DNA of 64,000 bases from Collinsella sp. An2 (GTDB taxonomy: Bacteria; Actinomycetota; Coriobacteriia; Coriobacteriales; Coriobacteriaceae). Where the stretch lies: positions 62,001-126,000 of the forward strand of contig NZ_NFJW01000003.1 of assembly GCF_002160065.1 (NCBI RefSeq), read 5' to 3'. The notes under the pieces were generated by a model. That model made no database searches, had not been told where the DNA came from, and saw only the letters and a program-made list of their open reading frames with translations. This document shows positions 7,895 to 60,761 of this stretch, piece by piece (the stretch's first letter is position 1; each line of letters opens with the position of its first letter). A program made the position numbers and the translations under genes.

Positions 7895-7930
7895 GCATAG
7901 CTGCAAGGAGGCACCGACCTCAATGCACAT

Positions 7931-8007
7931 GGCCCGTTCGTCTAGCGGTTTAGGACGCCGCCCTCTCAAGGCGGAGATCACCAGTTCGAATCTGGTACGG
8001 GCTACCA
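7931..8007 (+). tRNA. tRNA-Glu (CTC), copy 1
   Basis: The sequence folds as a cloverleaf. The acceptor is GGCCCGT with ACGGGCT, including a G-U pair at the end. The anticodon stem is CGCCC/GGCGG-like with loop CTCTCAA giving anticodon CTC. The T arm has loop TTCGAAT, and a discriminator A is followed by an encoded CCA. It decodes GAG. An identical copy lies at 8381-8457. Confidence 0.95.
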
Positions 8008-8019
8008 TCCGAGACTTTT

Positions 8020-8377: not shown

Positions 8378-8380
8378 TGT

Positions 8381-8457
8381 GGCCCGTTCGTCTAGCGGTT
8401 TAGGACGCCGCCCTCTCAAGGCGGAGATCACCAGTTCGAATCTGGTACGGGCTACCA
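8381..8457 (+). tRNA. tRNA-Glu (CTC), copy 2
   Basis: It is base-for-base identical to the copy at 7931-8007, including the encoded CCA. It follows tRNA-Gln after a three-base gap. Its terminator has a different stem sequence from that of copy 1, so the duplication is limited to the tRNA gene itself. Confidence 0.95.
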
Positions 8458-8468
8458 TTGAGTTTATT

Positions 8469-8510: not shown

Positions 8511-8704
8511 GAACAGGTTGACCCGTTTTTGGCAGATGCCATATCAACGCGGAAAGTGGTCCATACAATAGGCCATGCCAATGTAGCGTGTGGGCCATCT
8601 CATCGATTGCGTCCTGGATAGGCCACGCTCGCCCCCTATACGCTGACGGCCCAAGGGCGGATTTCGGCGTCAGAAACGATGGGTTATTAAAAGATCGTCA
8701 GAAG

Positions 8705-8842
8705 CTCGTTTCGGTTCTATGCAGTTAGTTTGGGAATCCTCGAGTAGACGGCCGATTCCGTCAACAAACCCGCAGGATTCAGAGGCTTGAAAGGGCGGTC
8801 TACTCGGGAATTCCGAAAACAACTGCATAAAAACGAAACGAG
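8705..8842. repeat. 138 bp palindromic element, copy A
   Basis: The outer arms CTCGTTTCGGTT..ATGCAGTT (8705-8726) and AACTGCAT..CGAAACGAG (8821-8842) are inverted repeats. The inverted symmetry continues inward through GGGAATCC and CGAGTAGAC against GTCTACTC and GGGAATTCC, leaving a central loop of about 40 bases. A copy of exactly the same length lies at 30177-30314. No protein is encoded, so it is a miniature palindromic repeat, either transposon-derived or a structured RNA. Confidence 0.85.
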
Positions 8843-9063
8843 TTTCTCCAGACGGCAAAGATCGCGAGAGCAGCGCGAAATCAGGCACCCTCTTGCCCTA
8901 GAACCCACAACCATGGGTATGCCCCGCAGCCCACGTTGGTGTGACTCGCAACGTCGGTGTGGCAACTGCTAACAATCTGCATTCACAAGTCGCTGAAACG
9001 GTCATATCGCATGCCAAGGAGATGGGCAGGGCATACCGACTGAGCATCGACGACCACTTTTTT

Positions 9064-9125
9064 CGCCGAGGCTCAGTTTTGCTCCAGAATCGGGGCAGAT
9101 TCCGGTGAATTACTGAGCGTTGATG
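9064..9125. repeat. 62 bp hairpin element, copy A
   Basis: CGCCGAGGCTCAG (9064-9076) pairs imperfectly with CTGAGCGTTGATG (9113-9125). The interior holds GAATCGG, GATTCC and GAATTACTGAGCG, matching copy B at 30483-30544, which is also 62 bp. It lies 221 bp after the 138 bp element; the same order holds at copy B. Confidence 0.8.
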
Positions 9126-9209
9126 AATCGTCAGCAAGTACTCGTGACGGGGATGACTCGGACACACGTTTTGTCTTACTAATACCGCACGAGTGAATCG
9201 GTCCTTCTC

Positions 9210-9338
9210 TTTTGTAGCAATCCACACGCTTGAGTCGAGTTTTGTAGCAAAACGCACACTCGACCCCCCGAAAAGGTGTCCCATGCGTGTGAATTGCCGC
9301 ACAACGTTTTCAGACCGTGTTATGTGCCGCAATTCCGG
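9210..9338. repeat. Cluster of TTGYGGCAA-type inverted arms, copy 1
   Basis: The arms TTTTGTAGCAATCCACACGC (9210-9229) and GCGTGTGAATTGCCGCACAA (9285-9304) are inverted relatives. A second pair (TTTTGTAGCAAAACGCACAC at 9240 and GTGCCGCAATTCCGG to 9338) is nested around them. The consensus arm matches the elements at 26771-26891 and 45888-45950. Confidence 0.7.
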
Positions 9339-26586: not shown

Positions 26587-27037
26587 GGGCGTGTCAAGTC
26601 CTCTGGCTATGTTGGTTCGGCGTCCCGAGGAGGGTGTTCGGGGCGTTCCGCTTTATGTGTACGATGACGTTTGCGATTATAGTCGCTCGAGCGGATACAG
26701 GTTTTCCGGTCGGTAAACTCACACCGCACTACGAAAAACCTTTGAAGTTCCTGGCGCCATAGTTGCGGTATTGTGGCAATCCACACGGTCTCCCTCTATA
26801 TTGCGGCAAGCCACACGAATGGCCACCCCAAAACGGCCCTTGAGCGTGTGAATTGCCACAATAGAGAGGCCCCGCGTGTGGATTGCTACAAAACCCGGCG
26901 CTGCGGACGCGCAGGACCACCCTCGAGTGGAGCGGTCACACTGGACCGCCCTCTGATGGTGCGGACGCGCTGAACCGTCCTCACACCACGCGCCGTCGGG
27001 CGCTCCGCCAAGGCTGAAGGGATGAAGTGACGAGCCG
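26587..27037. other. 450 bp intergenic region with a nested palindrome
   Basis: No gene is supported. The part before the transpeptidase start (26640-26700) is AT-rich and should hold its promoter. The centre contains the palindromic element 26771-26891, and the remainder up to the serine dehydratase stop shows only weak CGCGTCC-type repeats. Confidence 0.65.
26771..26891. repeat. Nested TTGYGGCAA-type palindrome, copy 2
   Basis: TTGTGGCAATCCACACG (26771-26787) pairs with CGTGTGGATTGCTACAA (26875-26891). Inside, TATTGCGGCAAGCCACACG pairs with GCGTGTGAATTGCCACAATA. TCTCCCTCTATA opposes ATAGAGAGGCC between the two pairs. The whole 121 bp can form one long hairpin with a centre near GGCCACCCC..AAACGGCC. 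It shares its arms with 9210-9338 and 45888-45950. Confidence 0.8.
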
Positions 27038-30024: not shown

Positions 30025-30176
30025 CGTATGAGGAGTTCCTGTATACGGGCGGATCGTGAGGAGCTAGGGTAGCAGCCGCAGCTCGTGATGGGTTGCGGGC
30101 GGGCTTGGACGCACCTCGGCAAACTCTTGGGGGCAAATAGTGGTGCGGCGCCCTTGCTTGCGCCACGCCGCAAAAA

Positions 30177-30314
30177 CTCGTTTCGGTTTTATGCAGTTAC
30201 TTTTCAATTTGCCGAGTAGACGCCTGATTTCTGCAACAAAGCGTCTGGATTCGAGAGGCCGAAAGAGGGGTCTACTCGGAAAGTCGCGAACTAACTGCAT
30301 AAAACCGAAACGAG
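30177..30314. repeat. 138 bp palindromic element, copy B
   Basis: The arms CTCGTTTCGGTT..ATGCAGTT (30177-30198) and AACTGCAT..CCGAAACGAG (30293-30314) pair almost perfectly. The symmetry continues inward with CCGAGTAGACGC against GTCTACTCGG. Length and arms match copy A at 8705-8842, while the central loop differs. Confidence 0.85.
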
Positions 30315-30373
30315 TTTATTGGGCGGCTTGTACGGACGCGTTTTCGTGTGTCCGATAGCCCAAGCTGAGGCAT

Positions 30374-30484
30374 GCGGGTCGGTCGCGGTGTCTGCGACGC
30401 TCTGGGGTCTGCGAGTCGGTCGCGGTGCCTGCGACGCGCCGGAGCCCGCGGGTCGGTTGCGGTGCCTACCACGCTAGAAAAACG
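30374..30484. repeat. Three 37 bp tandem repeats
   Basis: Units begin at 30374, 30411 and 30448 with GCGGGTCGGTCGCGGTG or close variants. The first two contain the inverted repeat GTCGC..GCGAC, while the third is degenerate. There are no spacers, so this is not a CRISPR array. The last unit abuts the 62 bp hairpin. Confidence 0.75.
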
Positions 30485-30544
30485 CCGACGCTCAGCTTTT
30501 CTTCGGAATCGGCTGGAATTCCAAAGAATTACTGAGCGTCGGCG
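30483..30544. repeat. 62 bp hairpin element, copy B
   Basis: CGCCGACGCTCAG (30483-30495) pairs perfectly over 13 bp with CTGAGCGTCGGCG (30532-30544). The inner GGAAT..ATTCC can form a second stem. Its sequence aligns with copy A at 9064-9125, with the same length and orientation. Confidence 0.85.
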
Positions 30545-30633
30545 AACGAGTCACTTTGCAATCGGCCCTGGCCCAGCGGAGGAGTCCGGCGGCAGGACCG
30601 GCGACAGGGTCGGCAGCGGGGGCGGACGGCGAG

Positions 30634-32115
30634 CTACAGCGCCATCGTACGAGCGCGGTCGATGCGCGCCAGGCAGTCCTCACGGCCGATGAGCTGCATG
30701 GTCTCGCCGAGCGGAGGGCTCACCATGTTGCCACACTCGGCCACGCGCACGGCTTGGAACACGAGGCGCTTTTTCAAATCGAGCGCCTCGGGCAGCGGCT
30801 CGAGCGCGGCGTCGATCGCCTCGGCGGTCCAACTGGCCTCGTCGAGTGCGGCCAGCGCCTTGCGTGCGGCGTCGAGTACGGCACCCATGCCCTCCTTGGC
30901 AAGGCCCTTGTTGACGGACTTCTCGTCATAGGCGAGCGTCTCGGCCGTCGCGAACACCGGGGCGGCGACACCTGCGGCGTCGGCGGGCATCTTGGTGCGC
31001 GGACGCACAATCTCGGCGAGCAGGTCCCACCAGGCGGCGTCGTGCTCGGCGCCCTTGACATCCACGCCGGCCGCCTCAAGCTGCGGGCGCAGAATCTGGG
31101 ACACAAAGGTCTCGTCGTCCATGCGGTTGATGTACTCGGCGTTCATCCAGTCGAGCTTCTTGGGGTCGAAGGTCGCCGGGTTCTTGGAGATGCGCTCGAG
31201 CGAGAACTCGCGGGCGAGCACGTCGCGCGGGATCACGGTCGTCTCGCCGTCGAGCGACCAGCCCAGCAGCGCCAGGTAGTTCACGAAGGCGTCGGAGAGG
31301 TAGCCGGCGTCGCGGTACTCCTCGACGGAGGTAGCGCCGTGGCGCTTGGAGAGCTTCTTGCCGTCGGCGCCCAAGATCATGGAGATGTGCGCGAAGGTGG
31401 GCACGGGGCTCCCAAGCGCCTCGTAGACCATGACCTGGCGCGGGGTGTTGGACAGGTGGTCATCGCCGCGGATGACGTGGGTGATGCCCATAGCGGCGTC
31501 ATCGACCACGGTCGCGAAGTTGTAGGTGGGGGTGCCGTCGGAGCGGAAGATCACGAAGTCGTCGAGCTCCTTGGCGTCGAAGACCACCTTGCCGTGCACG
31601 GCGTCGTCGATTACCACGTCGCCGCGGTCCTCGGGAACCTTGATGCGCAGCGTGTAGGGCTCGCCGGCCTCCATGCGGGCGCGCGCCTCGTCGGCCGGGA
31701 TGTTGCGGCAGCGGCGGTTGTAGCCCTGGAAGGGGTCTTTGCGGGCCTGGGCCTCGGCACGGTCCTGGGCGAGCTGCTCGGGCGTGCAGAAGCACGGGTA
31801 GGCCTTGCCCTCGGCGAGCAGGCGCTCGGCGGCCTCGCGGTAGAGGTCCATGCGCTCGGTCTGCGCGTAGGGGCCGAAGTCTCCGCCGACCTCGGGGCCC
31901 TCGTCCCAGTCAAGCCCGAGCCAGCGCATGGCGCGCAGGATCACCTGGGTGTTCTCTTCGGTCGAGCGCGTGGGATCGGTGTCGTCGATGCGCAGGATGA
32001 AGGTGCCGCCGTTGGCGCGGGCAAACGCCCAGTTATAGATGGCCGTGCGGGCGCCGCCGATATGCAGCTTGCCGGTGGGCGAGGGGGCGAAGCGTACGCG
32101 AACGTTTGAGCTCAT
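30634..32115 (-). CDS. gltX: Glutamyl-tRNA synthetase
   Basis: This 493-residue class I synthetase charges tRNA-Glu. It has the HIGH-type motif PSPTGKLHIGGAR (about 11-23), the KMSKS-type motif KLSKRHG (about 254) and the anticodon-binding C-terminal domain. The central CRNIPADEARARMEAGEPYTLRIKVP insert is typical of bacterial GluRS. The ATG at 32115 has AAGGAG six bases upstream. It is divergent from the ABC-like gene and convergent with the unknown pair. Whether it is a discriminating or non-discriminating enzyme cannot be decided here. Confidence 0.96.
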   Translation of the reverse strand: MSSNVRVRFAPSPTGKLHIGGARTAIYNWAFARANGGTFILRIDDTDPTRSTEENTQVILRAMRWLGLDWDEGPEVGGDFGPYAQTERMDLYREAAERLLAEGKAYPCFCTPEQLAQDRAEAQARKDPFQGYNRRCRNIPADEARARMEAGEPYTLRIKVPEDRGDVVIDDAVHGKVVFDAKELDDFVIFRSDGTPTYNFATVVDDAAMGITHVIRGDDHLSNTPRQVMVYEALGSPVPTFAHISMILGADGKKLSKRHGATSVEEYRDAGYLSDAFVNYLALLGWSLDGETTVIPRDVLAREFSLERISKNPATFDPKKLDWMNAEYINRMDDETFVSQILRPQLEAAGVDVKGAEHDAAWWDLLAEIVRPRTKMPADAAGVAAPVFATAETLAYDEKSVNKGLAKEGMGAVLDAARKALAALDEASWTAEAIDAALEPLPEALDLKKRLVFQAVRVAECGNMVSPPLGETMQLIGREDCLARIDRARTMAL

Positions 32116-45693: not shown

Positions 45694-45725
45694 CAGTTGC
45701 GTCCGGTATTTATTCCTCGCGTGCG

Positions 45726-45785
45726 ATTGAAGTCCCGGATTTGGACGTTTTGAGGCTCAAAAACGTCCAAATCCGGGACTTCAAT
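45726..45785. repeat. 60 bp palindrome, copy 1
   Basis: A 26 bp left arm (ATTGAAGTCCCGGATTTGG..CGTTTT) is complementary to the right arm (AAAACG..CCAAATCCGGGACTTCAAT), with a GAGGCTCA loop. It lies 32 bases after rsmB and could act as its terminator. A second copy with compensatory changes lies at 46083-46142. Confidence 0.9.
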
Positions 45786-45950: not shown

Positions 45951-46082
45951 TTGTTTAGCTGGAAAGTTTGCCAACGCTCTACAGTCCGCCTTGTGTAAGC
46001 AGGTCTTAAAGCTTTGGCCTCTAGAGGAGCTGCTTAATGTAGAGTAGCTACGTTCACAAAGCGTTTGACACGAATTGGCGAG

Positions 46083-46142
46083 ATCGAAGTCCCGGATTTG
46101 GACGTTTTGAGGCTCTAAAACGTCCAAATCCGGGACTTCGAT
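46083..46142. repeat. 60 bp palindrome, copy 2
   Basis: It has the same 26 bp stem as the element at 45726-45785, with outer pairs ATCGAAG/CTTCGAT instead of ATTGAAG/CTTCAAT, so one T-A pair is replaced by C-G on both arms. The loop GAGGCTCT differs in one base. Confidence 0.9.
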
Positions 46143-46974: not shown

Positions 46975-49900
46975 TTACTGAGCGACGCGACCGGTGTCCT
47001 CAAGCAGCACGCGCATAGGTTCCACGGCAGCCGCGAGAGCATCCTCGTCGGCCTGCCAGGTCCAGTTGCCGTCGGCTGTGCCCGGCACGTTCATGCGGGC
47101 CGTGTCGTCGAGCCCCAGGATGTCCTGAAGAGGCGACATGACCAGCTCGGCATCCGATGCCATCGCGCTGCGCATGAGCTTGGAGCCCAGGGTGCGCGCG
47201 TATTCGGCATTGCTGGTAAATGACCGTGCGCAGAAACCCACGAGCGTCGAGGTGTCATGCGTGGACGTGTAGAAGATCTTTTCCGCATGCGGGTGCAGCC
47301 CGTCCAGCACGTTGTAGTCCGAGAACTCCAGCACGTCCATGCCGGGGAAGCCGCAGGTCGCCACGAGCGAGCGGACGCCCGGGGTAAGAACGCCCAGGTC
47401 CTCGGCGATAAACGGGAGCGGGCCGAACTTCTTGTAGGCGCAGTCAAAGAGCTCCTTGCCCGGACCGGGAAGCCAACGGCCCTCAGAACCCGGAGCGCCG
47501 GCGGGAATGCGGAAGTAGTTATGGAAGCCCAGGAAGTGGTCGAGGCGCACGCGGTCGTAGAGGTCGCAGGCGCGTCCCAGGCGTGCGAGCCACCAGCGAT
47601 AGCCGTCCTTGCGCATGACGTCCCACCGGAAGGTCGGGTTGCCCCAGATCTGGCCTTCGGGAGCAAATCCGTCGGGCGGAGCGCCGGCGATGCCGGAGGG
47701 ACGGCCATCCTTGTCGAGCTCGAACTGTTCGGGGTTCGTCCAGACGTCAGCCGAGTCGTCGGAGACGTACATGGGGATGTCGCCGATGATCTGAATGCCG
47801 CGTTTGTGGGCATGCTCGACCATCTTGCGCCAGTCGACGTCAAAACGGTACTGGAAATACGCCTGGGCCTCGGCCTCAGGGCGGTACTTGGGGCTGGCCA
47901 GGATGCGCTCGTCATAGCGCGCGAGCGCCGCCGGCCACAGATGGCGCGGCTCGCCCTTGCGGGCGGCCTTGACCGACATGAAGGCACAGTAGGGCTTGAG
48001 CCAGAAGGACTCCCGCTCGACGAAGGCGCGGTAGGCGGGGTCGGCCTTCTTGCCGCCCTTGGCTTTCCAGGAGTGATACTCGGCGCGAAGCTCCTTTTCG
48101 CTCTCGGGCAGCAGGTCGATGTTGCCCGCAAACGCGGAAGGGCCGGCATAGGGCGAGTTATGCAGGTCGGTGGGGTTTACCGGAAGCACCTGCCAATAGC
48201 GCATGCCCATGACGGCGAGATGGTCGATGAAGCGGCGCGCAGGGACTCCCAGTGTGCCTTTGCGGCCCTTGTCGGACGGCAGCGAGGTGATGTGGCACAC
48301 CACACCCGCACCCGGCTCTAGCGGCTTTTGAAGGCGCAGCTCGTCATGAAAGTACACCACTGCGGAGCCGAAGGGCCACAGCGTCACGCCCACGGTGTCG
48401 TCTTCGGCGACGGGCAGCTCAAGGCCCGAGACGATGTCGGTCGCAAGCTCGCCGTGGGCGGGGATGCGAACGGTGTGGGTCTCGGTGGCGCTACGGTTAA
48501 TGAGAACCGTAGCGCAGGTGCCGTCGGAGGCGGTGCGCGTGTAGCTCAGGACGTCGTCGTTCAGCGCTCTGGCCGAGATGTCTCCGTCCACCATGAAGGG
48601 GAGTGCGCGGCGAACCGCCGTGGCGTTCTTCACGATGGTGAGCATGTCGTGGTCTTTGATGTCCTCTTCGAGCGGCAGCGTGCGGCGATTGCCGGGGTCG
48701 GACAGGCCCTCGAGGCCGTACTCGTCGCCGTAGTAGATGGACGGTACGCCCGGGAAGGTCATCTGCATGAGCGAGGCGAGCCAGAAGCGCGCCTTGGCAA
48801 GCCCCATGGCCTCGGGGGAGAGGCGCCAACGTCCGCGCTCCTCCTCGGGAAGCTGGCTTTCGTCGGGGCCGCCGCCCAGCACGGATGCAATACGCGGACG
48901 GTCGTGGCTGCCCAGCAGGTTCAGGCAGCAGGCGAGCGCCTCGGGCGGATAGTTCTCATGCAGCGTCTCGATGACCTCGGCCGCATCTGTAGCGGTCATG
49001 GAGCCAAGTAAAAAGCCGATGACCATGTCGCGGAACGGATAGTTCATGGCCGAGTCGAGCTCGTCGCCCAGCAGATAGTGACGAAGGTGTCCGTAGCTCT
49101 CCTTGTTGGAGGCGTCTTCCCATACCTCGCCGAGCAGAAGCCCGTCAGGGCGCTCCTCGAGAAGCGTCGTCTTGATGTCGGCGATCATCTGCTCTGAGAG
49201 CTCGTCTGCCACGTCGAGGCGCCAGCCGGCGGCTCCGGCGCGCGTCCAGTGACGAATGACGCCGTCTTCGCCCAACAGGAGGTCATGGACGAGCGGAGAG
49301 TTCTGGTTGAGGTCGGGCATGTTGCCAATGCCCCACCAGCAGCCGTAGGTTCCGTCCTCGTTGAAGCAATAGGCCTCGCGCCACGGGGAGTCCTCGCCCG
49401 CCCAGGCGCCCTTACCGGGATAGTTCTCGTAGCGGTTGAAGTAGATGGAGTCGTCACCCGTATGGTTGAAGACACCGTCTAGGATAATCGAGATGCCGTG
49501 CTTCTTGGCCTCGGCGCACAGCTCGCGGAAGTCGTCTTCCGTGCCGAGCATGGGGTCGATCTTCATGTAGTCGGCGGTGTCGTAGCGGTGGTTGCTCGCT
49601 GCCTCAAAGATGGGGTTGAGGTAGATCGCCGTGACGCCAAGCTCCTCAAGGCGTTTCAGGTCGGCGGTGATGCCTTTGAGCGAGCCGCCATAGAAGTCCC
49701 AGGTGGTGATGGAGCTGTCGGCGTTGCGCTCATAGACGGGCGGCTCGTTCCAATCGTCGACGATGCGGCGGTGGTAGCAGTTATGGGGTTTCTCAGCGAT
49801 CGGTTCGCAGCGCTCGCGCCACTCGGGGTCGCGGCGGTAGCGGTCGGGGAAGATCTGATAGACGATGCCACCCTCATACCAGCTGGGACGCGTGGTGCGC

Positions 49901-50277
49901 GGCTTATAGACGGTGAGCTGGAACGAGGGGACGTTCTCGTAGTCGTAGGTGACGCCTGCACCGCCGGTGTGGCCCTCGGGTGCGCCACAGCGGACCTCGT
50001 GCTCTTCGCCGTCGCGCTCGACGCGGGCGATAAAGCTGTACCACACGATGGCGGCGCGGTCACAGTCGATGGTGTACGAGTAGGTGTCGCCCTCAAGGCG
50101 CTGCATGCGATGCCTGCGCTCGCCTTCTCCGTCGACCCACGTGCGCAGAAACACGCTGATCTCGCCCTCGTAGGGAGATGCCTCCACATGGACGTTCAGC
50201 GTAACGCCGGTACCTACCTTGACGGCTCCGAAGGGGGAGCGGAACTCGGGCAGCCGGCTGTTGTGAATCAAAATCAT
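46975..50277 (-). CDS. GH13 alpha-amylase/neopullulanase-like - GH77 4-alpha-glucanotransferase fusion
   Basis: This 1100-residue two-enzyme protein acts on alpha-glucans. The N-terminal beta-sandwich (about 1-120) precedes a GH13 barrel: nucleophile in GWRLDVADEL (about 355), acid/base in LLLGEVWED (about 384), third acid in LLGSHDRPR (about 458), with EGGIVYQIFPDRY at its start. From about 650 a MalQ-like GH77 domain follows: CHITSLPS, PVNPTDLHNSPYAGPSAFAGN, VRLDHFLGF, IAEDLGVLTPG and the C-terminal MNVPGT..GNWTW. Both halves appear complete. It has no signal peptide and is the last gene of the glycogen cluster, so it probably debranches or hydrolyses and then rearranges glycogen-derived maltodextrins in the cytoplasm. 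Confidence 0.92.
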   Translation of the reverse strand: MILIHNSRLPEFRSPFGAVKVGTGVTLNVHVEASPYEGEISVFLRTWVDGEGERRHRMQRLEGDTYSYTIDCDRAAIVWYSFIARVERDGEEHEVRCGAPEGHTGGAGVTYDYENVPSFQLTVYKPRTTRPSWYEGGIVYQIFPDRYRRDPEWRERCEPIAEKPHNCYHRRIVDDWNEPPVYERNADSSITTWDFYGGSLKGITADLKRLEELGVTAIYLNPIFEAASNHRYDTADYMKIDPMLGTEDDFRELCAEAKKHGISIILDGVFNHTGDDSIYFNRYENYPGKGAWAGEDSPWREAYCFNEDGTYGCWWGIGNMPDLNQNSPLVHDLLLGEDGVIRHWTRAGAAGWRLDVADELSEQMIADIKTTLLEERPDGLLLGEVWEDASNKESYGHLRHYLLGDELDSAMNYPFRDMVIGFLLGSMTATDAAEVIETLHENYPPEALACCLNLLGSHDRPRIASVLGGGPDESQLPEEERGRWRLSPEAMGLAKARFWLASLMQMTFPGVPSIYYGDEYGLEGLSDPGNRRTLPLEEDIKDHDMLTIVKNATAVRRALPFMVDGDISARALNDDVLSYTRTASDGTCATVLINRSATETHTVRIPAHGELATDIVSGLELPVAEDDTVGVTLWPFGSAVVYFHDELRLQKPLEPGAGVVCHITSLPSDKGRKGTLGVPARRFIDHLAVMGMRYWQVLPVNPTDLHNSPYAGPSAFAGNIDLLPESEKELRAEYHSWKAKGGKKADPAYRAFVERESFWLKPYCAFMSVKAARKGEPRHLWPAALARYDERILASPKYRPEAEAQAYFQYRFDVDWRKMVEHAHKRGIQIIGDIPMYVSDDSADVWTNPEQFELDKDGRPSGIAGAPPDGFAPEGQIWGNPTFRWDVMRKDGYRWWLARLGRACDLYDRVRLDHFLGFHNYFRIPAGAPGSEGRWLPGPGKELFDCAYKKFGPLPFIAEDLGVLTPGVRSLVATCGFPGMDVLEFSDYNVLDGLHPHAEKIFYTSTHDTSTLVGFCARSFTSNAEYARTLGSKLMRSAMASDAELVMSPLQDILGLDDTARMNVPGTADGNWTWQADEDALAAAVEPMRVLLEDTGRVAQ

Positions 50278-50565
50278 ACGGCAGTTCCTCTACTACTAGC
50301 GCGGCGCACGTCGAAGGCGCCCGTCGCGCGAAGCAAAACTTCTCTAGTATATGGAAACTGTGGGCAACCTGCTAGCAATGTCTTGAAAATATGCCGTAAT
50401 GATGCTTCCTTGAAATACGCATCTCGCATAATGGATGATGAGAAATGCATAAACGGCCAGGATTTGGCCTAAACGGGATTGATATATACCGATGTACGAC
50501 ATGGCAACGAGGTATCGAATTCTTACGCTATCGACACATGTCAGACGCGTCGGGGCTACAAAAGC
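50278..50565 (-). promoter_or_regulatory. Leader of the GH13-GH77 gene
   Basis: The stretch after the glgA terminator contains TATACT (minus strand, about 50354) in CCATATACTAGAG, a good -10 with no clear -35. It suggests that the fusion gene has its own promoter in addition to any read-through. No gene is supported here. Confidence 0.4.
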
Positions 50566-50602
50566 AAAAAGGCGAGAGCCGGAACATCCGACCCTCGCCT
50601 TC
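50566..50602 (-). terminator. Rho-independent terminator after glgA
   Basis: On the minus strand AAGGCGAG and CTCGCCTT form the stem (50571-50602), followed by TTTTTGC. Confidence 0.8.
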
Positions 50603-50643
50603 TGTACGTGCGTGCGATAAGCGATGCCGTAGGAGGAAGATCC

Positions 50644-53067
50644 CTACGAGCGACGACGCGTCGTGGTCTTGCGAGCGGCAGAGACCTTCGTGGCCTTCGG
50701 TGCCGTCGTCTTTGCGGCGGGCTTCTCCTCGTCCGCGGTCTTGGCTGCAGGAGCCTTTGTGGCGGTGGAGGAGGAGGTCTTCGCGGCGGTCGCCTTGGCT
50801 GCAGGTTTCGCTGCAGGCTCGGGCGCAGGCTCGGGCGCAGGCTCGGGCGCAGGCTCGGAAGCGGCGGGAGCCGCCTTTGCCGCGGTCGCCTTCGATGCGG
50901 CCTTCTTGGGCGCAGGGGCGTCCTCAGCCGGAGCGGCCTTCGCGGCAGCAGCCTTGGTTGTGGCCGTCGCCTTGGTAGCCGTCGTCTTCGGGGCGGTCGT
51001 CTTAGCCGTCGACGCGGCCTTCGTGGAGGCGGTTGCCGCCTTGGTGGCCGTGGTCTTCTTAGTCGCGGCCTTCGTCTCGGTCGCCGTTGTGCTCTTGGCG
51101 GTCTCCGCGGGCTTCGCAGCGGTCTTCGGCGTCGTGGCCTTGGTGGTCTTGGTTGCCGCAGCCTTGGTCGTCTTCGTCGCCGTGGTCTTCGTGGTCGAAG
51201 CCTTGGTAGCCGTCTTAGCGGCGGTCTTGGTTGCAGCGGGCTTCGCGGCGGCCTTGGTGGTTGTCTTGGATGCGGTGGCCTTGGTGGTGCGCTTCGTGGT
51301 CTTAGCCGCAGGCTTCACCTCTTCGGCCTGGGGCTCCTCTGCCGGCTTCTCAGCAGCGGGCTCAGCGGGCTTTGCGGGCTCCTCCTTGGCAGGCTCGGGC
51401 TCGGGTGCCGGAGCGGCCTCGGGCTCGGGCTCAGGCGTAGTCTCAGCCTTGTGAGCAGGCGTCTCCTCGACAGGCTCAGCTGCAGGTTCGGGAGCCACCT
51501 CGGGCTCAGGTTCGGGCGCAGCCACAGGCTCTGCCTCGGCCACGGGTGCCGGCTCCGGCGCGGTCTCAGGCTCCGGAGCCGGGGTCGGTTCAGGCTCCGG
51601 CTCGGGCATCACCTCGACATCAGGATGCAGGCTGCGATACAGATCGATGTAGGCGTCCGCCGAGCGCTTCCAGGTGAAGTCCTGGTTCATGGCCTGCTCG
51701 ACGAGCTTGTTCCAAGCGTCGCGGTCGTCCCAGAACAGGCGCGCGGCGCGGAAGACCGCATCGCCCATCTCGTCGCCGTTGAAGTGGGCAAACGAGAAGC
51801 CCGTGCCCTCGCCGGTGTACTGGTTGTACGGAATGACGGTGTCCTTGAGGCCGCCGGTCTCGCGCACGATGGGCAGGGTGCCGTAGCGCATGGCGATGAT
51901 CTGAGAAAGGCCGCAGGGCTCGAAGAGGGACGGCATGAGGAACATGTCAGCGCCGGAGTACATGCGGCGGGAGAGCGCAGGGTCGAAGGTGAGGCGCGCT
52001 GCCATGGAGCCGGGGTACTTGTTGGCGAAGTAGTTCATGGAGTCCTCGTAGTCGCCGGTGCCGAGGATGGCAACCTGGACGCCGCCGGAGAGGATGCGGT
52101 CGAGGGCGTAGGTGACAAGGTCCATGCCCTTCTGGCGCGTGAGGCGCGTGACCATGACCATGAGCGGTCGGTCGGAGCGGACCTCGAGGCCCAGCTCCTG
52201 CTGAAGGGCGGCCTTGCATGCGGCCTTGCCCTCCATGTTGCCCACGGAGTAGTTCTCGGTGAGCTGGTAGTCGGTCGCGGGGTCCCAATCGACGTAGTCG
52301 ATGCCGTTCAGGATGCCCGAGAGCACGTTGTTGCGGCGACGAAGCACGCCGTCAAGATGCTCGCCGTACTCGGGCGTCTGGATCTCGCCGGCATAGGTGG
52401 GGCTCACCGTGGTGATGGCGTCGCTGTAGTTGAGAGCGCCCAGCATGTAGTTGATGGAGCTGGAGTCGCAGCGCAGCTGGCGAGCGGCGTTGGGGATGTG
52501 CGCCAGGCCCAGCACGTCGTTCAGAATGGTGTCGGAGAACTGGCCCTGGAAGGCGATGTTGTGGATCGAGAAGACGGTCTTCACGCGCTCATAGAGCGGC
52601 AGGCCCTGATAGAACTCGCGCAAAAAGACGGGGGAGAGGGCGGTGTGCCAGTCGTTGCAGTGCAGGATGTCGCACTGGAAGCCGTCGGGCAGGTGCTGAA
52701 GGCTCTCGGTGACGGCCTTGGAGAAGAACGCGAAGCGCTCGCCGTCGTCGAAGAAGCCATACGGATAGCTGCGGGCAAAGTAGTGCTCGTTGTCCAGGAA
52801 CAGATAGGTGATTCCATCCATGTCCAGGCGCTCGAGGCCGCAGTACTCGTTGCGCCAGCCAAGGCTTACATAGAACTCGCCGACATGCTGCATGCGCTCG
52901 ACAAAGTACTCGGGAATGGTGGAGTACTTCGGCACCATGACGATGACGTCGGCGCCCGCCTTCTTAAGTGCCTTCGGAAGCGATCCTGCGACATCGCCAA
53001 GACCGCCGGTCTTCACAAAGGGTGCCGCTTCCGCAGAGGCGAACACCACCTGCATCTTCTTAGCCAT
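50644..53067 (-). CDS. glgA: Glycogen synthase with long acidic-then-basic low-complexity tail
   Basis: This 807-residue protein transfers glucose from ADP-glucose to glycogen. Residues 1-486 form a standard GT5 synthase with the KTGGLGDVAGSLPKAL motif at residues 19-34 and the C-terminal FLMPSLFEPCGLSQ active-site block. Typical GlgA ends here at about 480 residues. The remaining 320 residues are an acidic Pro/Glu/Ala stretch (about 487-583, EPEPEPTPAPEPE) and a strongly basic Lys/Thr/Ala stretch (about 584-807, KTTKRTTKATASKTTTK) ending in RKTTTRRRS, as in histone H1 or AlgP tails. ATG 53067 has GGAGG six bases upstream. GlgB, in the same cluster, has a similar basic tail. Confidence 0.93.
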   Translation of the reverse strand: MAKKMQVVFASAEAAPFVKTGGLGDVAGSLPKALKKAGADVIVMVPKYSTIPEYFVERMQHVGEFYVSLGWRNEYCGLERLDMDGITYLFLDNEHYFARSYPYGFFDDGERFAFFSKAVTESLQHLPDGFQCDILHCNDWHTALSPVFLREFYQGLPLYERVKTVFSIHNIAFQGQFSDTILNDVLGLAHIPNAARQLRCDSSSINYMLGALNYSDAITTVSPTYAGEIQTPEYGEHLDGVLRRRNNVLSGILNGIDYVDWDPATDYQLTENYSVGNMEGKAACKAALQQELGLEVRSDRPLMVMVTRLTRQKGMDLVTYALDRILSGGVQVAILGTGDYEDSMNYFANKYPGSMAARLTFDPALSRRMYSGADMFLMPSLFEPCGLSQIIAMRYGTLPIVRETGGLKDTVIPYNQYTGEGTGFSFAHFNGDEMGDAVFRAARLFWDDRDAWNKLVEQAMNQDFTWKRSADAYIDLYRSLHPDVEVMPEPEPEPTPAPEPETAPEPAPVAEAEPVAAPEPEPEVAPEPAAEPVEETPAHKAETTPEPEPEAAPAPEPEPAKEEPAKPAEPAAEKPAEEPQAEEVKPAAKTTKRTTKATASKTTTKAAAKPAATKTAAKTATKASTTKTTATKTTKAAATKTTKATTPKTAAKPAETAKSTTATETKAATKKTTATKAATASTKAASTAKTTAPKTTATKATATTKAAAAKAAPAEDAPAPKKAASKATAAKAAPAASEPAPEPAPEPAPEPAAKPAAKATAAKTSSSTATKAPAAKTADEEKPAAKTTAPKATKVSAARKTTTRRRS
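50813..50858 (-). repeat. 12 bp tandem repeats in the glgA tail
   Basis: Nearly four copies of GCAGGCTCGGGC in direct tandem encode a Pro-Ala-Pro-Glu block inside the basic tail. They could change copy number by slippage. Confidence 0.85.
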
Positions 53068-53096
53068 TGAGGCCTCCAAAATACAATCCGTTGTAC

Positions 53097-53131
53097 GAAT
53101 CGCCGCCCAGCACAAGGCCGAGCGGCGATTC
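53097..53131 (-). terminator. Hairpin between glgD and glgA
   Basis: GAATCGCCGC (53097-53106) pairs perfectly with GCGGCGATTC (53122-53131). No T-tract follows on the minus strand, so it may attenuate or protect the message rather than fully terminate. Confidence 0.55.
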
Positions 53132-53192
53132 TAATAATAGCTCCTATCGAACATCATGGTTGCGTCGATGCCCCGAGGTGTCAGATGGAAAC

Positions 53193-54299
53193 CTACTTGA
53201 GGGCAGCCTTGCCTACGACCAGGATGTCGTCGGGAGTGCCGCTCAGCTCGGTGTTCGCGGCCACGACGTTGCTCTTGTCAAGAATGGCGTTCTCAACGTG
53301 GGCGCCGGTCTTGATGACGCAGGACTGCATGATGATGCTGTTCACCACGTTGGCGCCGGCCTCGACGGTCACGCCGCGCGCGATGATGGAGTTGCGCACG
53401 GTACCCTTGATCTCGCAGCCAGCCGACACGCGGGAGTTGCACACCACGGCGCCGGAGAAATACTTCGCGGGCGGCGCGTCGTGGGCCTTGGTGAGAATCG
53501 GGCGCTCACGCATGAACAGCTTGTTGGCAGTCGTCGGGTCCAGCAGCTCCATGCTGCGACGGAAGTAGGTCTCCTCGTTGAAGAAGCCCATCGCGAGGCC
53601 CTTGTACTCGTAGCTGCACACGTCGATGCGCTCGAAGTCGGGACGGATGGCCTCGAAAAGGTCCAGGTAGTCGGCGCTGGAGTACTGGTCGATGATCTGC
53701 AGGAGCAGGTCGCGGTTGATGACGACGCAGTCCAGGAACTTGTTGTCGCCATAGTGGCAGCCCTGGTGGAAGCCCTTCACGCGGCCGGCGTCGCCGATCT
53801 CGAGCGACATGGCGTCTTCCTGGTTGCGCTCAGCATGCACGTACACCATCGTGATGCCGACGCCGCTTTTCTCGTGCGCGTCGATGACGGCGTTGAGGTC
53901 CAGGTTGAAGATGATGTTGGTGCCCATGAGCACGACATAGGGCTTGTCGGAGCGCTCAAAGAGCGACTTGCTGGAGATGATGTCGCGCAGCAGGAAGCGC
54001 ATGCCCTGCTTGGTGGCGCCGTAGGGGTTGCCCGGCAGCGGGAACAGGCCACCCTTCTTGCGGTCGAGGCCCCAGTCCTTGCCGTGGCCAACGTGGTCCA
54101 TGATGGAGCGCCAGTTGCCCGGCATGACCAGACCCACGGTCTTGATGCCGGCGTTCGCCAGGTTGGAGAGCGGGAAGTCGATCAGACGATAGCGGCCCAT
54201 GAACGGAATGGACGCGAGCGGACGGCTGTCGAGCAGGACGCTGTGCTCCCGGCTCGTGTAGTTAGCGGTGATATATCCGATGGCCTTGCGGTTGATCAT
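53193..54299 (-). CDS. glgD: Glucose-1-phosphate adenylyltransferase subunit GlgD
   Basis: This 368-residue second subunit of ADP-glucose pyrophosphorylase follows glgC after four bases. It has the adenylyltransferase fold (PLASIPFMGRYRLIDFPLSNLANAGI) but lacks the N-terminal LAGGxGxRL nucleotide-binding loop that GlgC has, as in the GlgD of Firmicutes. The C-terminal half forms left-handed beta-helix repeats (CEIKGTVRNSIIARGVTVEAGANVVNS). It is taken to activate or regulate GlgC in a GlgC-GlgD heteromer. Confidence 0.93.
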   Translation of the reverse strand: MINRKAIGYITANYTSREHSVLLDSRPLASIPFMGRYRLIDFPLSNLANAGIKTVGLVMPGNWRSIMDHVGHGKDWGLDRKKGGLFPLPGNPYGATKQGMRFLLRDIISSKSLFERSDKPYVVLMGTNIIFNLDLNAVIDAHEKSGVGITMVYVHAERNQEDAMSLEIGDAGRVKGFHQGCHYGDNKFLDCVVINRDLLLQIIDQYSSADYLDLFEAIRPDFERIDVCSYEYKGLAMGFFNEETYFRRSMELLDPTTANKLFMRERPILTKAHDAPPAKYFSGAVVCNSRVSAGCEIKGTVRNSIIARGVTVEAGANVVNSIIMQSCVIKTGAHVENAILDKSNVVAANTELSGTPDDILVVGKAALK

Positions 54300-54303
54300 C
54301 GGT

Positions 54304-55449
54304 TCATTCCCCCTTCCCGATGACGACGTCGTTTCCGACGACGGCGGTGTCCTTCGTGGTGTCGACGCTTCCGAGCTTCACGCCCTCCTCGACAACGGCG
54401 TTCTCGCCGATGATGGCGCGGCAGATGTGCGCTCCGGCCTTGATGACGGCGCCCGGCAGTAGGACGGAGTCCTCGACGATGGCGCGCTCACCGATGACGC
54501 AGTCGGTGGAGAGGACGGAGTGGCGAGCGGTGCCCAGAATCTCGCAGCCGTTGGAGACCAGGCAGTCATCGACCTTGCCGTCCGGCCCGATGTAGTGCGG
54601 CGGACGGGTGGTGTCGTTGCTCATGATGGGCGTCTTGTAGTCGTACAGATCGAAATAGGGGTTCGGCCCCAGCAGGTCCATGCTCGTCTCATGGTAGCTG
54701 GCGATGGTGCCTACGTCCTTCCAGAAGCCTTCGAACTTATGGACGAACAGGCGCTTGCCGTCGGCGAGGGCCTTCGGGATGATGTCGCCGCCGAAGTCGT
54801 GGCTGGAGCGCTGATCGAGGGCGTCCTCTTCGAGGGTCTTGATCAGGAAGTCGGCGGTGAAGATGTAGATGCCCATGGACGCGAGGTTCGAATCGGGCTT
54901 CTCGGGCTTCTCGGTGAACTTGGTGATGCGGCCCTCGTCATCGGCGGTCAGGATGCCGAAGCGGCTCGCATCCTCCCACGGCACCGGCATGACGGCGACG
55001 GTGAGGTCGGCGTCGTTGGAGATGTGGGTGTGCAGCATCTCGCGGTAGTCCATGCGATAGAGGGCGTCTCCGGACAGGATGAGCACGTACTTGGGGTCAT
55101 GCGTCTTGATGTAGTCGAGGTTCTGCGTGACGGCGTCAGCGGTGCCGGCATACCATGCGCCGCCGTCCTGCGTGGCATACGGGGGAAGGATCGACACGCC
55201 GCCGCCGCGCTCGTCGAGGTCCCACGCCGAGCCGGAGCCCAGGTAGGCATGCAGGCGATAGGGGCGATACTGGGTGAGCACGCCCACCGTGTCGATGCCC
55301 GAGTTCGCGCAGTTCGACAGCGTGAAGTCGATGATCCTGTACTTGCCTCCGAATGAAACGGCTGGTTTCGCAATCTTGGATGTGAGCGCCCCCAACCTAC
55401 TACCCTGTCCTCCTGCGAGGAGCATGGCGATGCATTCTTTTTTGCTCAT
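54304..55449 (-). CDS. glgC: Glucose-1-phosphate adenylyltransferase, catalytic subunit
   Basis: This 381-residue enzyme makes ADP-glucose from glucose-1-phosphate and ATP, the committed step of glycogen synthesis. It keeps the [33 protein letters not shown] motif (about 10-42) including the catalytic-site Arg/Lys and Asp, [10 protein letters not shown], the EKP motif ([11 protein letters not shown]) and C-terminal beta-helix repeats. It lies between glgP and glgD on the same strand. Confidence 0.95.
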
Positions 55450-55497
55450 CGATGTTCTCCTTCAAAACCCGTTCCGATAGTTTGACCTTGCTATCGA

Positions 55498-55529
55498 AGG
55501 TGTGCCGCAAAGCGCCTTGCGGCACACCT
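55498..55529 (-). terminator. Strong hairpin between glgP and glgC
   Basis: AGGTGTGCCGCAA (55498-55510) pairs with TTGCGGCACACCT (55517-55529) over 13 bp with a six-base loop. The following minus-strand sequence has only two Ts, so partial termination seems likely. Confidence 0.65.
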
Positions 55530-55563
55530 GGATGCCAGAATGGCGGGGGTTACGCGAGAGCGG

Positions 55564-57987
55564 CTATGCGTGCCAAATCTCGTCGCGATATTCCCTGATG
55601 GTACGGTCGCTCGAGAAATGACCCGAGTTGGCCGTGTTGTGGAGCGCCATGCGCTGCCAGGCGATGGTGTCGGCATGCACTGCGGTGAGCTCCTCCCACG
55701 CGTCGACGTAGGACCTGAAGTCCTTGAGCACGAGGTCATGGTCGTTGTTGTCCATGAGCTCGCGACGGATGGAATCGAACGTGCCGGACAGGCGCGAGAA
55801 CGTGCTGTCGGTGAGCTCGTCTACGCAGCGGCCCAGACGGTCGCGATCGGCGTTGTACTCGTCCCACGAGAAATAGTGGCTGTGCTGCAGCTCCACGACC
55901 TCGGGCTCGGTGAGGCCGAAGATCTTCACGTTCTCGCGGCCTGCGAGGTCGGCGATCTCGATGTTCGCGCCGTCGAGCGTGCCGAGGGTGATGGCGCCGT
56001 TCATCATGAGCTTCATGTTCGAGGTGCCCGAGGCTTCCTGGCCGGCCGTGGAGATCTGCTCGGAGATGTCGGCAGCGGAGTAGATGAGTTGGGCGTTCGA
56101 GACGCGGAAGTTGGGAATGAAGACGACCTTGATGCGGTCGTTGACGCGCTCGTCGTTGTTCACCACGTCGGCCACCGAGTTGATGAGGCGGATGACCTCC
56201 TTGGCGAAGTAATAGCTCTGCGCGGCCTTGCCCGAGAAGATGAAGGTGGTCGCCGGGACGGTGAAGTCGGGGTCGGCGATCATGCGGTTGTAGATGTCCA
56301 TCACCTTGAAGATGTTCAGGAGCTGGCGCTTGTAGGCGTGGAAGCGCTTGACCTGGACGTCGAAGATGGAGTTCGGGTCGACAACGATGCCGGTGACTTC
56401 CTTGATGTAGGCGGCCAGACGCTTCTTATTCTCAAGCTTGGAAGCGGCCATGGCGCGCAGGAAGTCTTTGTCGTCGTAGTAGGCCTCGAGCTTCTTGAGC
56501 TCGTCGGCGTTGTCGAGCCAGCCCGAGCCGATCTTCGAGGTGATGAGCTTGGCGTAGGAGGGGTTGGCTTCGGCGAGGAAGCGACGGTGGCTCACGCCGT
56601 TGGTCTTGTTGTTGAACTTTTCGGGGGTGAGCTCGTAGAACTCCTTGAAGACCTGCTCCTTCAGGATCTTGGTATGGAGCTCGGCCACGCCGTTCACCGA
56701 GTGGCTGCACACGATCGAGAGGTTGGCCATGCGGACCTCGCCGTCCCACAGGATGGCGGTCTTCTGGAACATCTCACGCCACTCGGGGTCATCCGTCGGG
56801 AAGTTCTCGCGGAAGCGGCGGGCGATCTCGTCGATGATCTGATACAGGCGGGGGAGAAGCGGCTTGAACGTGGTGATGGGCCACTTTTCGAGCGCCTCGG
56901 GCAGCACCGTGTGGTTGGTGAACGAGACGGTCTTGGTGACGATGTCCCAAGCCTCGTCCCACTCCAGGCCCTCCTCGTCCATGAGGACGCGCATGAGCTC
57001 GGGGCCGCACATGGCGGGGTGCGTGTCGTTGGTGTGGATGGCGACGTACTGGGGCAAAAGCTTCCAGTTGGAGCCGTGCTCGTTGCGGAACGTGCGCAGG
57101 ATGGAGTTGATGCCAGCGGCGACGAACAGGTACTCCTGCTTGAGGCGCAGGATCTTGCCGTGCTCACCGGCGTCGGCGGGGTAGAGGATCGTGGAGATGG
57201 CCTCGGCCTCGGAACGACCGGCGTTTGCCTGCGCGTAATCGCCGCGGTTGAAGGCGTCCAGGTCGAAGAGGTCCTCGTTGGGCTCGGCCTTCCAGACGCG
57301 CAGCTTGTTCACGAGCTCGCCGCCGTAAGCTACGACGGGGATGTCATAGGGCACCGCGAGGATCTTCTGACCGCCCTCGGTGCGGTACATGGTGCGGCCG
57401 TCCTTCTCGTAGGCCACGCTCGTGCCGCCGAAGACGACCTCGACCGAGCTCTCGGGACGACGGGACTCCCAGGGATAGTCATGCTTGAGCCAGTTGTCGG
57501 CAAGCTCGACCTGGCGGCCGTCGACGATCTCCTGCTTGAAGAGGCCGTATTCGTAGCGCATGCCGTTGCCGTAAAAGGCGATGCCCTCGTGCGCGGCGGA
57601 CGCCAGGAAGCACGCGGCCAGACGGCCCAGGCCGCCGTTGCCAAGAGCCGCGTCGGGCTCGCGGACCTCGAGGGCCTCGAGCGAGGTGCCCATGTCCTCG
57701 AGCGCCTCGGCAACCATGTCGCGAATGCCGAAGTTGAGGAGGTAGTTATCAAGCAGCCTGCCGATGAGGAACTCGAGCGAGAAGTAGTAGACGCGCTTCT
57801 TGCCGGATTTCTCGATCTCACGCTCGTTCTCGCTCGCGATGCGGCGCGCGCGGACGGCGATGAGCTCGGCAAGGGAGTAGAAGCGGTCGTGCGACCCGCA
57901 CTGCTCGAAATCCTTGCCGGTGTTGGCGCGGATCATCGCGCGATATTGCGTGATGAAGTCCTCTTTGTCTTTGAAAATCTGTTTCAT
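55564..57987 (-). CDS. glgP: Glycogen/maltodextrin phosphorylase
   Basis: This 807-residue PLP enzyme releases glucose-1-phosphate from glycogen ends. It starts with helices typical of the family, has YYFSLEFLIGRLLDNYLLN, GNGGLGRLAACFLAS (about 115), HTNDTHPAM and the PLP-binding segment EASGTSNMKLMMNGAITLGTLDGAN with the Lys near residue 659. Length and domain order are normal. It follows glgB at 68 bases distance in the cluster. Confidence 0.96.
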   Translation of the reverse strand: MKQIFKDKEDFITQYRAMIRANTGKDFEQCGSHDRFYSLAELIAVRARRIASENEREIEKSGKKRVYYFSLEFLIGRLLDNYLLNFGIRDMVAEALEDMGTSLEALEVREPDAALGNGGLGRLAACFLASAAHEGIAFYGNGMRYEYGLFKQEIVDGRQVELADNWLKHDYPWESRRPESSVEVVFGGTSVAYEKDGRTMYRTEGGQKILAVPYDIPVVAYGGELVNKLRVWKAEPNEDLFDLDAFNRGDYAQANAGRSEAEAISTILYPADAGEHGKILRLKQEYLFVAAGINSILRTFRNEHGSNWKLLPQYVAIHTNDTHPAMCGPELMRVLMDEEGLEWDEAWDIVTKTVSFTNHTVLPEALEKWPITTFKPLLPRLYQIIDEIARRFRENFPTDDPEWREMFQKTAILWDGEVRMANLSIVCSHSVNGVAELHTKILKEQVFKEFYELTPEKFNNKTNGVSHRRFLAEANPSYAKLITSKIGSGWLDNADELKKLEAYYDDKDFLRAMAASKLENKKRLAAYIKEVTGIVVDPNSIFDVQVKRFHAYKRQLLNIFKVMDIYNRMIADPDFTVPATTFIFSGKAAQSYYFAKEVIRLINSVADVVNNDERVNDRIKVVFIPNFRVSNAQLIYSAADISEQISTAGQEASGTSNMKLMMNGAITLGTLDGANIEIADLAGRENVKIFGLTEPEVVELQHSHYFSWDEYNADRDRLGRCVDELTDSTFSRLSGTFDSIRRELMDNNDHDLVLKDFRSYVDAWEELTAVHADTIAWQRMALHNTANSGHFSSDRTIREYRDEIWHA

Positions 57988-58055
57988 GGCTTCCTTTCCA
58001 CCCGGCAGTCCCGGGACGTCTGCAGATTCAGCCGCTCTCTATTATATGGCTGCTG

Positions 58056-60413
<2,358 letters not shown>

Positions 60414-60761
60414 ATGACTCATCCAATCGATCAAGCGGGCAAGCCGCCGTCCGATAGATACCTTGTCTGGGACGGCGCACGATGGCGCCGGGTCGGTGTA
60501 CGCCGGCCAGCGCGTGCGGTGCCTAGACGTTCATGCACGAGAATACCATTCTCGAACTTTTGTCCATCCGTGAAGCCGAGAGACGGTAGCTATCGTTTCG
60601 TAGACGTTGCATCCGGCGGCATCACATGGCGGGAGCCTGTTGAAACCCTTACGGTTCGAACATGTTGTTCTGTTAGGATGAAAGGCTATGTCGCGCCGGT
60701 CCGCGCGCGATGACACGCGTTCGATATCGGCTGCAGCAGCCACCATGAGAAAGGGTTCTTT
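60414..60761. other. Divergent control region between glgB and the HAD gene
   Basis: This 348 bp region holds the glgB promoter with its palindrome (60538-60554) and the promoter for the plus-strand genes near 60640-60690 (TAGGAT in CTGTTAGGATGAAAGG). No gene is supported. Confidence 0.5.
60538..60568 (-). promoter_or_regulatory. Palindromic operator overlapping the glgB promoter
   Basis: CGAGAATGGTATTCTCG (minus strand, 60538-60554) is a perfect 7+3+7 palindrome. It contains TGGTATTCT, an extended -10 element, with TGGACA upstream as a -35 candidate at 15 bases. A repressor binding here would block the start of the whole glycogen cluster. Confidence 0.55.

Follow-up and report, generated by a model that had tools for sequence, protein, structure and literature searches.

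The ERIC elements of enterobacteria are imperfect palindromes of about 130 bp that lie between genes, and we know of no mobilizer for them. MITEs are small, non-coding elements bounded by terminal inverted repeats, and GTAG REPs are palindromes with a GTAG tag at the foot. In REPINs, or REP doublets, as set out by Bertels and Rainey in 2011 (PMC3116915), short and invariant inverted ends flank a less conserved spacer of fixed length and the whole can form a hairpin; the elements are intergenic, occur in many copies and lack coding capacity, and the inter-REP spacings used there are 71 or 110 bp.

Here we describe a 144-bp palindromic repeat of Collinsella sp. An2, element A, that has likenesses to each of these systems. 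It resembles ERIC elements in size, palindromy and intergenic place, but families of A-like elements have a core in common and differ in their arms, which is not known for ERIC. With REPINs it shares inverted ends, a hairpin-forming sequence, intergenic position, high copy number and the lack of coding capacity, although A is longer and belongs to a superfamily whose core is conserved across families with different arms. The palindromic, intergenic GTAG/CGTC-tagged REPs (PMC3733652) are also similar, and the inner box of A, CGAGTAGAC, contains GTAG. However, GTAG lies inside A, in that box, and is replaced in members from the largest genus of the family (CGAGCACAC, CGACCAGAC), and several palindromes that flank genes for RAYTs (REP-associated tyrosine transposases, HUH/Y1 family) in these genomes contain CGTC and are not A.

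Two pairs of palindromes in the window

The initial annotation of the window, by which we mean the whole 64,000-nucleotide stretch of DNA analysed, reported a long palindrome (A) followed by a shorter one (B) at two places. Folding with RNA parameters confirmed both long imperfect palindromes (8702-8845 and 30174-30317), and the two shorter ones are also present (9064-9127 and 30483-30546). With these parameters A copy 1 folds at -69.0 kcal/mol (z -9.8) and A copy 2 at -73.2 kcal/mol (z -10.2), none of 200 shuffles being as good in either case. The fold of B copy 1 is weaker (z -2.0, with 6 of 200 shuffles equal or better), and that of B copy 2 has z -6.3 with no equal among 200 shuffles. The features of the two places are as follows.

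8607-8894, + strand: mosaic repeat of about 290 bp enclosing A copy 1, parts of which are common to about nine other copies
8702-8845, + strand: A copy 1, 144-bp palindromic repeat with arms, inner box and asymmetric centre (covariance model R1, 151.7 bits)
8702-8726, + strand: left outer arm of A copy 1 (AAGCTCGTTTCGGTTCTATGCAGTT), from the alignment of A copies
8741-8749, + strand: left inner box of A copy 1 (CGAGTAGAC), conserved across the order
8798-8806, + strand: right inner box of A copy 1 (GTCTACTCG), conserved across the order
8821-8845, + strand: right outer arm of A copy 1, inverted, from the alignment of A copies
about 9039-9178, + strand: extent of the homology common to most B copies, around B copy 1
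9064-9127, + strand: B copy 1, 64-bp palindrome of a separate family
30174-30317, + strand: A copy 2, with sharp 144-bp borders and little shared flank
30365-30475, + strand: 37-bp repeat in three tandem units, in the A-B interval of copy 2
30483-30546, + strand: B copy 2, terminator-like on the minus strand
30634-32115, - strand: gltX (glutamate-tRNA ligase), the neighbour used for comparison with relatives

The two places had been described as carrying exactly the same two elements. Their lengths, order and strand do match, but the sequences have diverged, with 75-78% identity between the A copies and 75% between the B copies. By the coordinates of the initial annotation itself, A and B are 221 bp apart in copy 1 and 168 bp apart in copy 2. 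The DNA separating them is unrelated between the two places, with matches of only 7-8 bp, and we saw no tandem 37-bp repeats in the A-B interval of copy 1.

Copy 1 was also placed in a tRNA-adjacent island. It does follow a tRNA-Gln/tRNA-Glu pair by about 245 bp, but we saw no island: 36 distinct window ORFs searched against NCBIfam or Pfam had ordinary chromosomal functions or no match, and no transposase was found among them. Of the 39 window genes predicted by our script, which make up 83% of the window, four were left out of the family search and three plus-strand predictions were swapped for overlapping minus-strand ORFs. Two copies of the tRNA-Glu(CTC) gene (7930-8008 and 8380-8458), which do not differ over their 79 bp, flank tRNA-Gln(CTG).

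The window holds other repeats. Two near-identical, almost perfect 61-bp palindromes of another family (GAAGTCCCGGATTTGGACGTTTT...) lie 357 bp apart at 45725-45785 and 46082-46142. A further intergenic repeat type, with motifs TGTGGATTGCTACAAAA / GTGTGAATTGCC.CA, occurs at about 9200-9320 and at 26767-26895, where it forms an inverted pair. Pfam matches place a glycogen/starch metabolism cluster at 46975-60434, with a glucanotransferase, a starch synthase, nucleotidyl transferases, a phosphorylase and a CBM48/alpha-amylase protein.

A and B are separate repeat families

We counted both elements across the 2.54-Mb host draft genome, merging opposite-strand matches of one palindrome, and found both to be dispersed families. 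BLAST and profile searches of genome segments gave 31 A and 17 B copies, the latter figure leaving out a weak fragment (C3:62005, 18.7 bits). Covariance models run on the whole genome gave 31 A copies and, in addition, 25 loci that are about 145 bp long but have other arms. They also gave 26 B copies, including a divergent one (C23:128692) that we chose to leave out of the B alignment.

The repeated pairing of A with B had suggested a composite unit. Within the host genome this pairing is loose. Six of the 26 B copies lie within 400 bp of an A copy, and, read from the coordinates, A is on the same side relative to the B strand in five of these six pairs, which would suit a single mobile unit made of both elements. 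However, 25 of 31 A copies and 20 of 26 B copies are solitary, the spacing of linked copies ranges from 92 to 221 bp, and no B lies within 400 bp of any of the 25 other-arm loci. Uniform placement would give 0.3 linked B copies; if 12% of the genome is available, a fraction that we assume, 2.7 would be expected (P about 0.05 for the six seen). The linkage is at most mildly above chance. Moreover, B was found in G000 and G001, with weak matches in three others of the 65 family genomes; it is a separate, nearly genus-restricted palindromic family, whereas the A superfamily spans the order. Because most copies are solitary, spacings vary, taxonomic spread is unequal and linkage is so mild, a composite unit is not supported, and as the A-B intervals of the two window places are unrelated in sequence we regard it as extremely improbable.

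Element A has conserved ends and a variable interior

Alignment of the 31 A copies resolves two outer arms of 20-25 bp, with a mean pairwise identity of 94.6% over positions 5-25 and 120-140. Inside them lie variable 14-nt spacers (53.9%) and a 9-bp inverted inner box (88.9%). The centre, at 54.0%, holds an asymmetric motif around CAACAAAACCSCWGG that reaches 66.6%, and it gives A a direction. Both ends are present in all 31 copies, although they have diverged in some. Ends that are constrained around a free interior are what PMC3116915 describes for REPINs, and this pattern speaks for a REPIN-like reading of A.

Ten of 14 examined copies have extra shared flank, while others, such as the one at 30174, show the 144-bp unit with sharp borders. 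Measured against this flank, the centre has one direction in five copies and the opposite direction in four or five (one copy, L015, shares flank on a single side), as though the segment enclosed by the arms had flipped. A second arm family in the same genome (GGAAAAGGGCGTCC, L075-L090) forms a palindromic unit of about 230 bp in about a dozen copies. The best whole-unit pair that we compared is only 93.6% identical over 218 bp, and there is therefore no sign of very recent copying. Because A lies inside a larger repeat in about ten copies and the second arm family has its own longer unit, the actual mobile unit may exceed 144 bp.

Related elements across the Coriobacteriales

Members of the superfamily to which A belongs have a length of about 145 bp and an inner core, CGAGTAGACC ... 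CAAAACCSCWGGT ... GGTCTACTCGG, in common. The members that we inspected keep the length, the inner box and a CAAAAC..C.GG motif, but their arms are very different (for example, GGAAAAGGGCGTCC, CGGAAGTATGCGGC and GTTTTGTACGACT): the inverted arms of about 20 bp are 95% identical inside one family and unrelated between families. Covariance model R1 matches 59 of 65 Coriobacteriaceae genomes. R3 has matches in 86 of 217 Coriobacteriales genomes, by our count 56 from the family and 30 from other families, and we checked the core by eye in three genomes of other families. In a phylum-wide sample six of 149 genomes match, all inside the order, and there is no match in about 138 sampled genomes that lie outside the Coriobacteriales by their listed kinship.

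Phage and plasmid records gave no match. Among viral contigs one arm pattern matched once (L336), in apparent coding sequence and with no element, and two further patterns gave no hits. Two elements that differ in arm type lie end to end at one locus (L327, G009:C7:53629-53909), with an overlap of a few bases at the junction. We found no description of these repeats in Collinsella or Coriobacteriia among open-licence PMC papers, and a term search of PMC3733652 and PMC6006769 for Coriobacteriia names gave no hits. The A superfamily is a widespread and apparently undescribed group in the order.

Placement of A and fate at orthologous sites

None of 56 A-superfamily copies overlaps a predicted gene, genes here being those called by our own hexamer script rather than a standard gene finder. 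Eleven of the 56 have no called neighbour on one or both sides; in the remaining 45 gaps the neighbours are co-directional in 25 cases, convergent in 17 and divergent in three, so that copies are biased to the 3' ends of genes. Of the 25 elements in co-directional gaps, 14 have the orientation of the genes and 11 the opposite one. Target-site duplication was not found at the 31 A copies, of which three have a flanking repeat of at least 5 nt, against a null of 10.2%.

The largest genus of the family, presumably Collinsella, is represented by 43 genomes, and we compared orthologous sites within it. At three sites the arm type differs between species, with the centre unchanged at one of them. 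At this site, L060, 11 species have the whole element, seven with GGAAGTATGCGGC arms, three with GGAAGTGCGGTG arms and one recombinant, and GGAAGTGCGGTG-arm species have nearly the same central 40 nt as GGAAGTATGCGGC-arm species. At the second site ten species carry the first arm type and two the other, and at the third six carry the first and three the second. One element (L193, G030) was considered as a chimera, but ordinary chromosomal recombination fits better because its two flanks are also from different haplotypes.

Six more genomes retain at L060 only the start of the left arm, about 8-13 nt, and one genome (L358, G027) has the remnant TTCGGAAG alone at the third site. These vacant alleles, which keep about 8-13 nt of left arm, could be deletions; we saw no clean empty site, transposition event or excision product. 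Orthologous copies diverge about as fast as the flanking DNA (0.045 against 0.143 and 0.061 for the two flanks in one comparison, and 0.019 against 0.027 and 0.019 in another).

The gltX of the window is 88-90% identical to its best matches among Collinsella records, a set from which the genome's own record may be missing, and this places the genome in or near that genus. At gltX, neither A nor B is near the gene in the gltX loci of 36 relatives; one of these loci has an A-like element well away from it (L222). This shows lineage-specific presence of A and B. It does not amount to a clean empty site because gene order there varies among relatives. Read on the minus strand, B copy 2 is followed by TTTTT and lies about 87 bp after the gltX stop, and it looks like the gltX terminator; most other B copies have no T run on that side.

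Arms as DNA ends or as RNA stems

The stable folds of A and its conserved core would also suit a cis-regulatory or small RNA dispersed in the genome, a possibility raised in the initial annotation. Arm complementarity is strong between families. In an alignment of 42 members picked for diversity, pairing reaches 92.5% in the outer helix, where 23 of the 24 pairs show two-sided changes; the whole structure is 91.3% paired compared with 31-44% when slid, and covariation over the whole structure is 0.532 compared with 0.173 when shuffled; these values lean toward the chosen structure because the paired columns were themselves selected for pairing (at least 70% standard pairs, with one isolated pair dropped).

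Within the 31-copy A family, however, arm complementarity is nearly the same inside copies (0.955) as between copies (0.945), with 43 of 2,000 permutations as high, and compensatory change is not supported; for the spacers, inner box and centre, complementarity within copies does not clearly exceed that between copies. G-U cells are scarce in the outer helix of the 42 members, with 20 over 24 pairs against 23 over eight pairs of the inner helix. From the small within-copy excess and the rarity of outer-helix G-U pairs, we consider it more likely that the arms are alike because of a common recognition sequence than because a stem is kept at each site. The strand of A relative to genes is inconsistent, and orthologous copies change about as fast as their surroundings. 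An Rfam search of the window at gathering thresholds returned three tRNAs and nothing else, and an E-value search of ten loci returned one tRNA and sub-threshold microRNA hits. The idea of a structured RNA is weakened by these observations, and we hold it to be very unlikely.

The search for a mobilizer

The ends of REPINs are REP sequences that occur beside a RAYT gene. Since A has the anatomy described for REPINs, it might be a true REPIN that is mobilized by the genome's own RAYT. Y1/RAYT-like genes are present in 53 of the 65 family genomes, with two in the host. However, none of 49 Y1 (PF01797) loci has an A-superfamily element within about 1.5 kb. Nine of 19 Y1 loci that we scanned do have a palindrome scoring at least 16, and six of these palindromes have GGGGACG/CGTCCCC-type or GGGACGGGG-type arms; none of the 19 loci has one of the A type. 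A RAYT as mobilizer is thereby rejected as far as the flank test reaches.

Six RAYT-like genes (L139, L142, L146, L147, L150 and L158) are accompanied by palindromes of the GGGGACG/CGTCCCC type. These are probably the cognate REPs of the genes and apparently constitute a REPIN system separate from A.

A Y1 match is lacking in 12 family genomes, yet six of these (G004, G006, G021, G023, G029 and G049) are rich in the element, with 12-34 R1 matches each when both strands are counted. This is not decisive against a RAYT because REPINs, according to PMC8049555, are able to persist in genomes that lack one. Overall, a true RAYT-driven REPIN seems unlikely. A is REPIN-like, but we do not file it as a REPIN because the RAYT-linkage test failed.

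We also looked for an autonomous transposon whose two ends lie far apart around a gene. For the two arm families tested, the host genome holds no such copy, and a transposon carrying A arms was set aside as the source. The same result bears on the possibility that A elements descend, as MITEs do, from a classical DDE transposon bearing the same terminal inverted repeats. Like MITEs, A is small and shows conserved terminal inverted repeats and no visible coding capacity, but neither a parent transposon nor a target-site duplication was found for it, and such an origin is highly unlikely.

A proposed non-autonomous palindrome with exchangeable arms

Of the possibilities raised by the initial annotation, a non-autonomous mobile or REP-like element acted on in trans fits best: A is dispersed and intergenic, it has conserved inverted ends, and we saw no autonomous copy. 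We infer that A is mobile, and it is probably a REPIN-like non-autonomous palindrome, with B as an independent repeat. A would be built of two inverted outer arms, the inner inverted box and an asymmetric centre, and the outer arms would be DNA ends recognized by an enzyme acting in trans. Copies would spread slowly to intergenic places, be inherited there and then decay. In each family the enzyme variant that recognizes the arms would fix their sequence, whereas the inner box and some of the centre would persist throughout the order. B would be another palindromic repeat, nearly confined to the genus, that comes to lie in the same gaps between genes, and the pairing of A with B would form no functional unit.

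A is best classed with the small palindromic repeats that are non-autonomous, as a new variant whose core is common to the order and whose arms are specific to each family. We tentatively propose a fuller reading, in which the Coriobacteriales have an undescribed superfamily of mobile palindromes of about 145 bp, with exchangeable arms and a conserved core, that may be moved by a trans-acting enzyme that is neither a RAYT nor a transposase with matching ends, and whose arms may be exchanged in place.

Exchange of arms in place, if true, would mean that a genomic site keeps its element while the ends change. The fixed core and changing arms would be a handle for finding the enzyme, through a DNA-binding domain that co-varies with arm type, and a model for specificity switching in repeat populations; the 145-bp repeats would also serve readily as typing markers. 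If this reading is correct, a major group of gut bacteria, Collinsella and its relatives, would have small mobile palindromes that parallel REPINs, seemingly with another enzyme.
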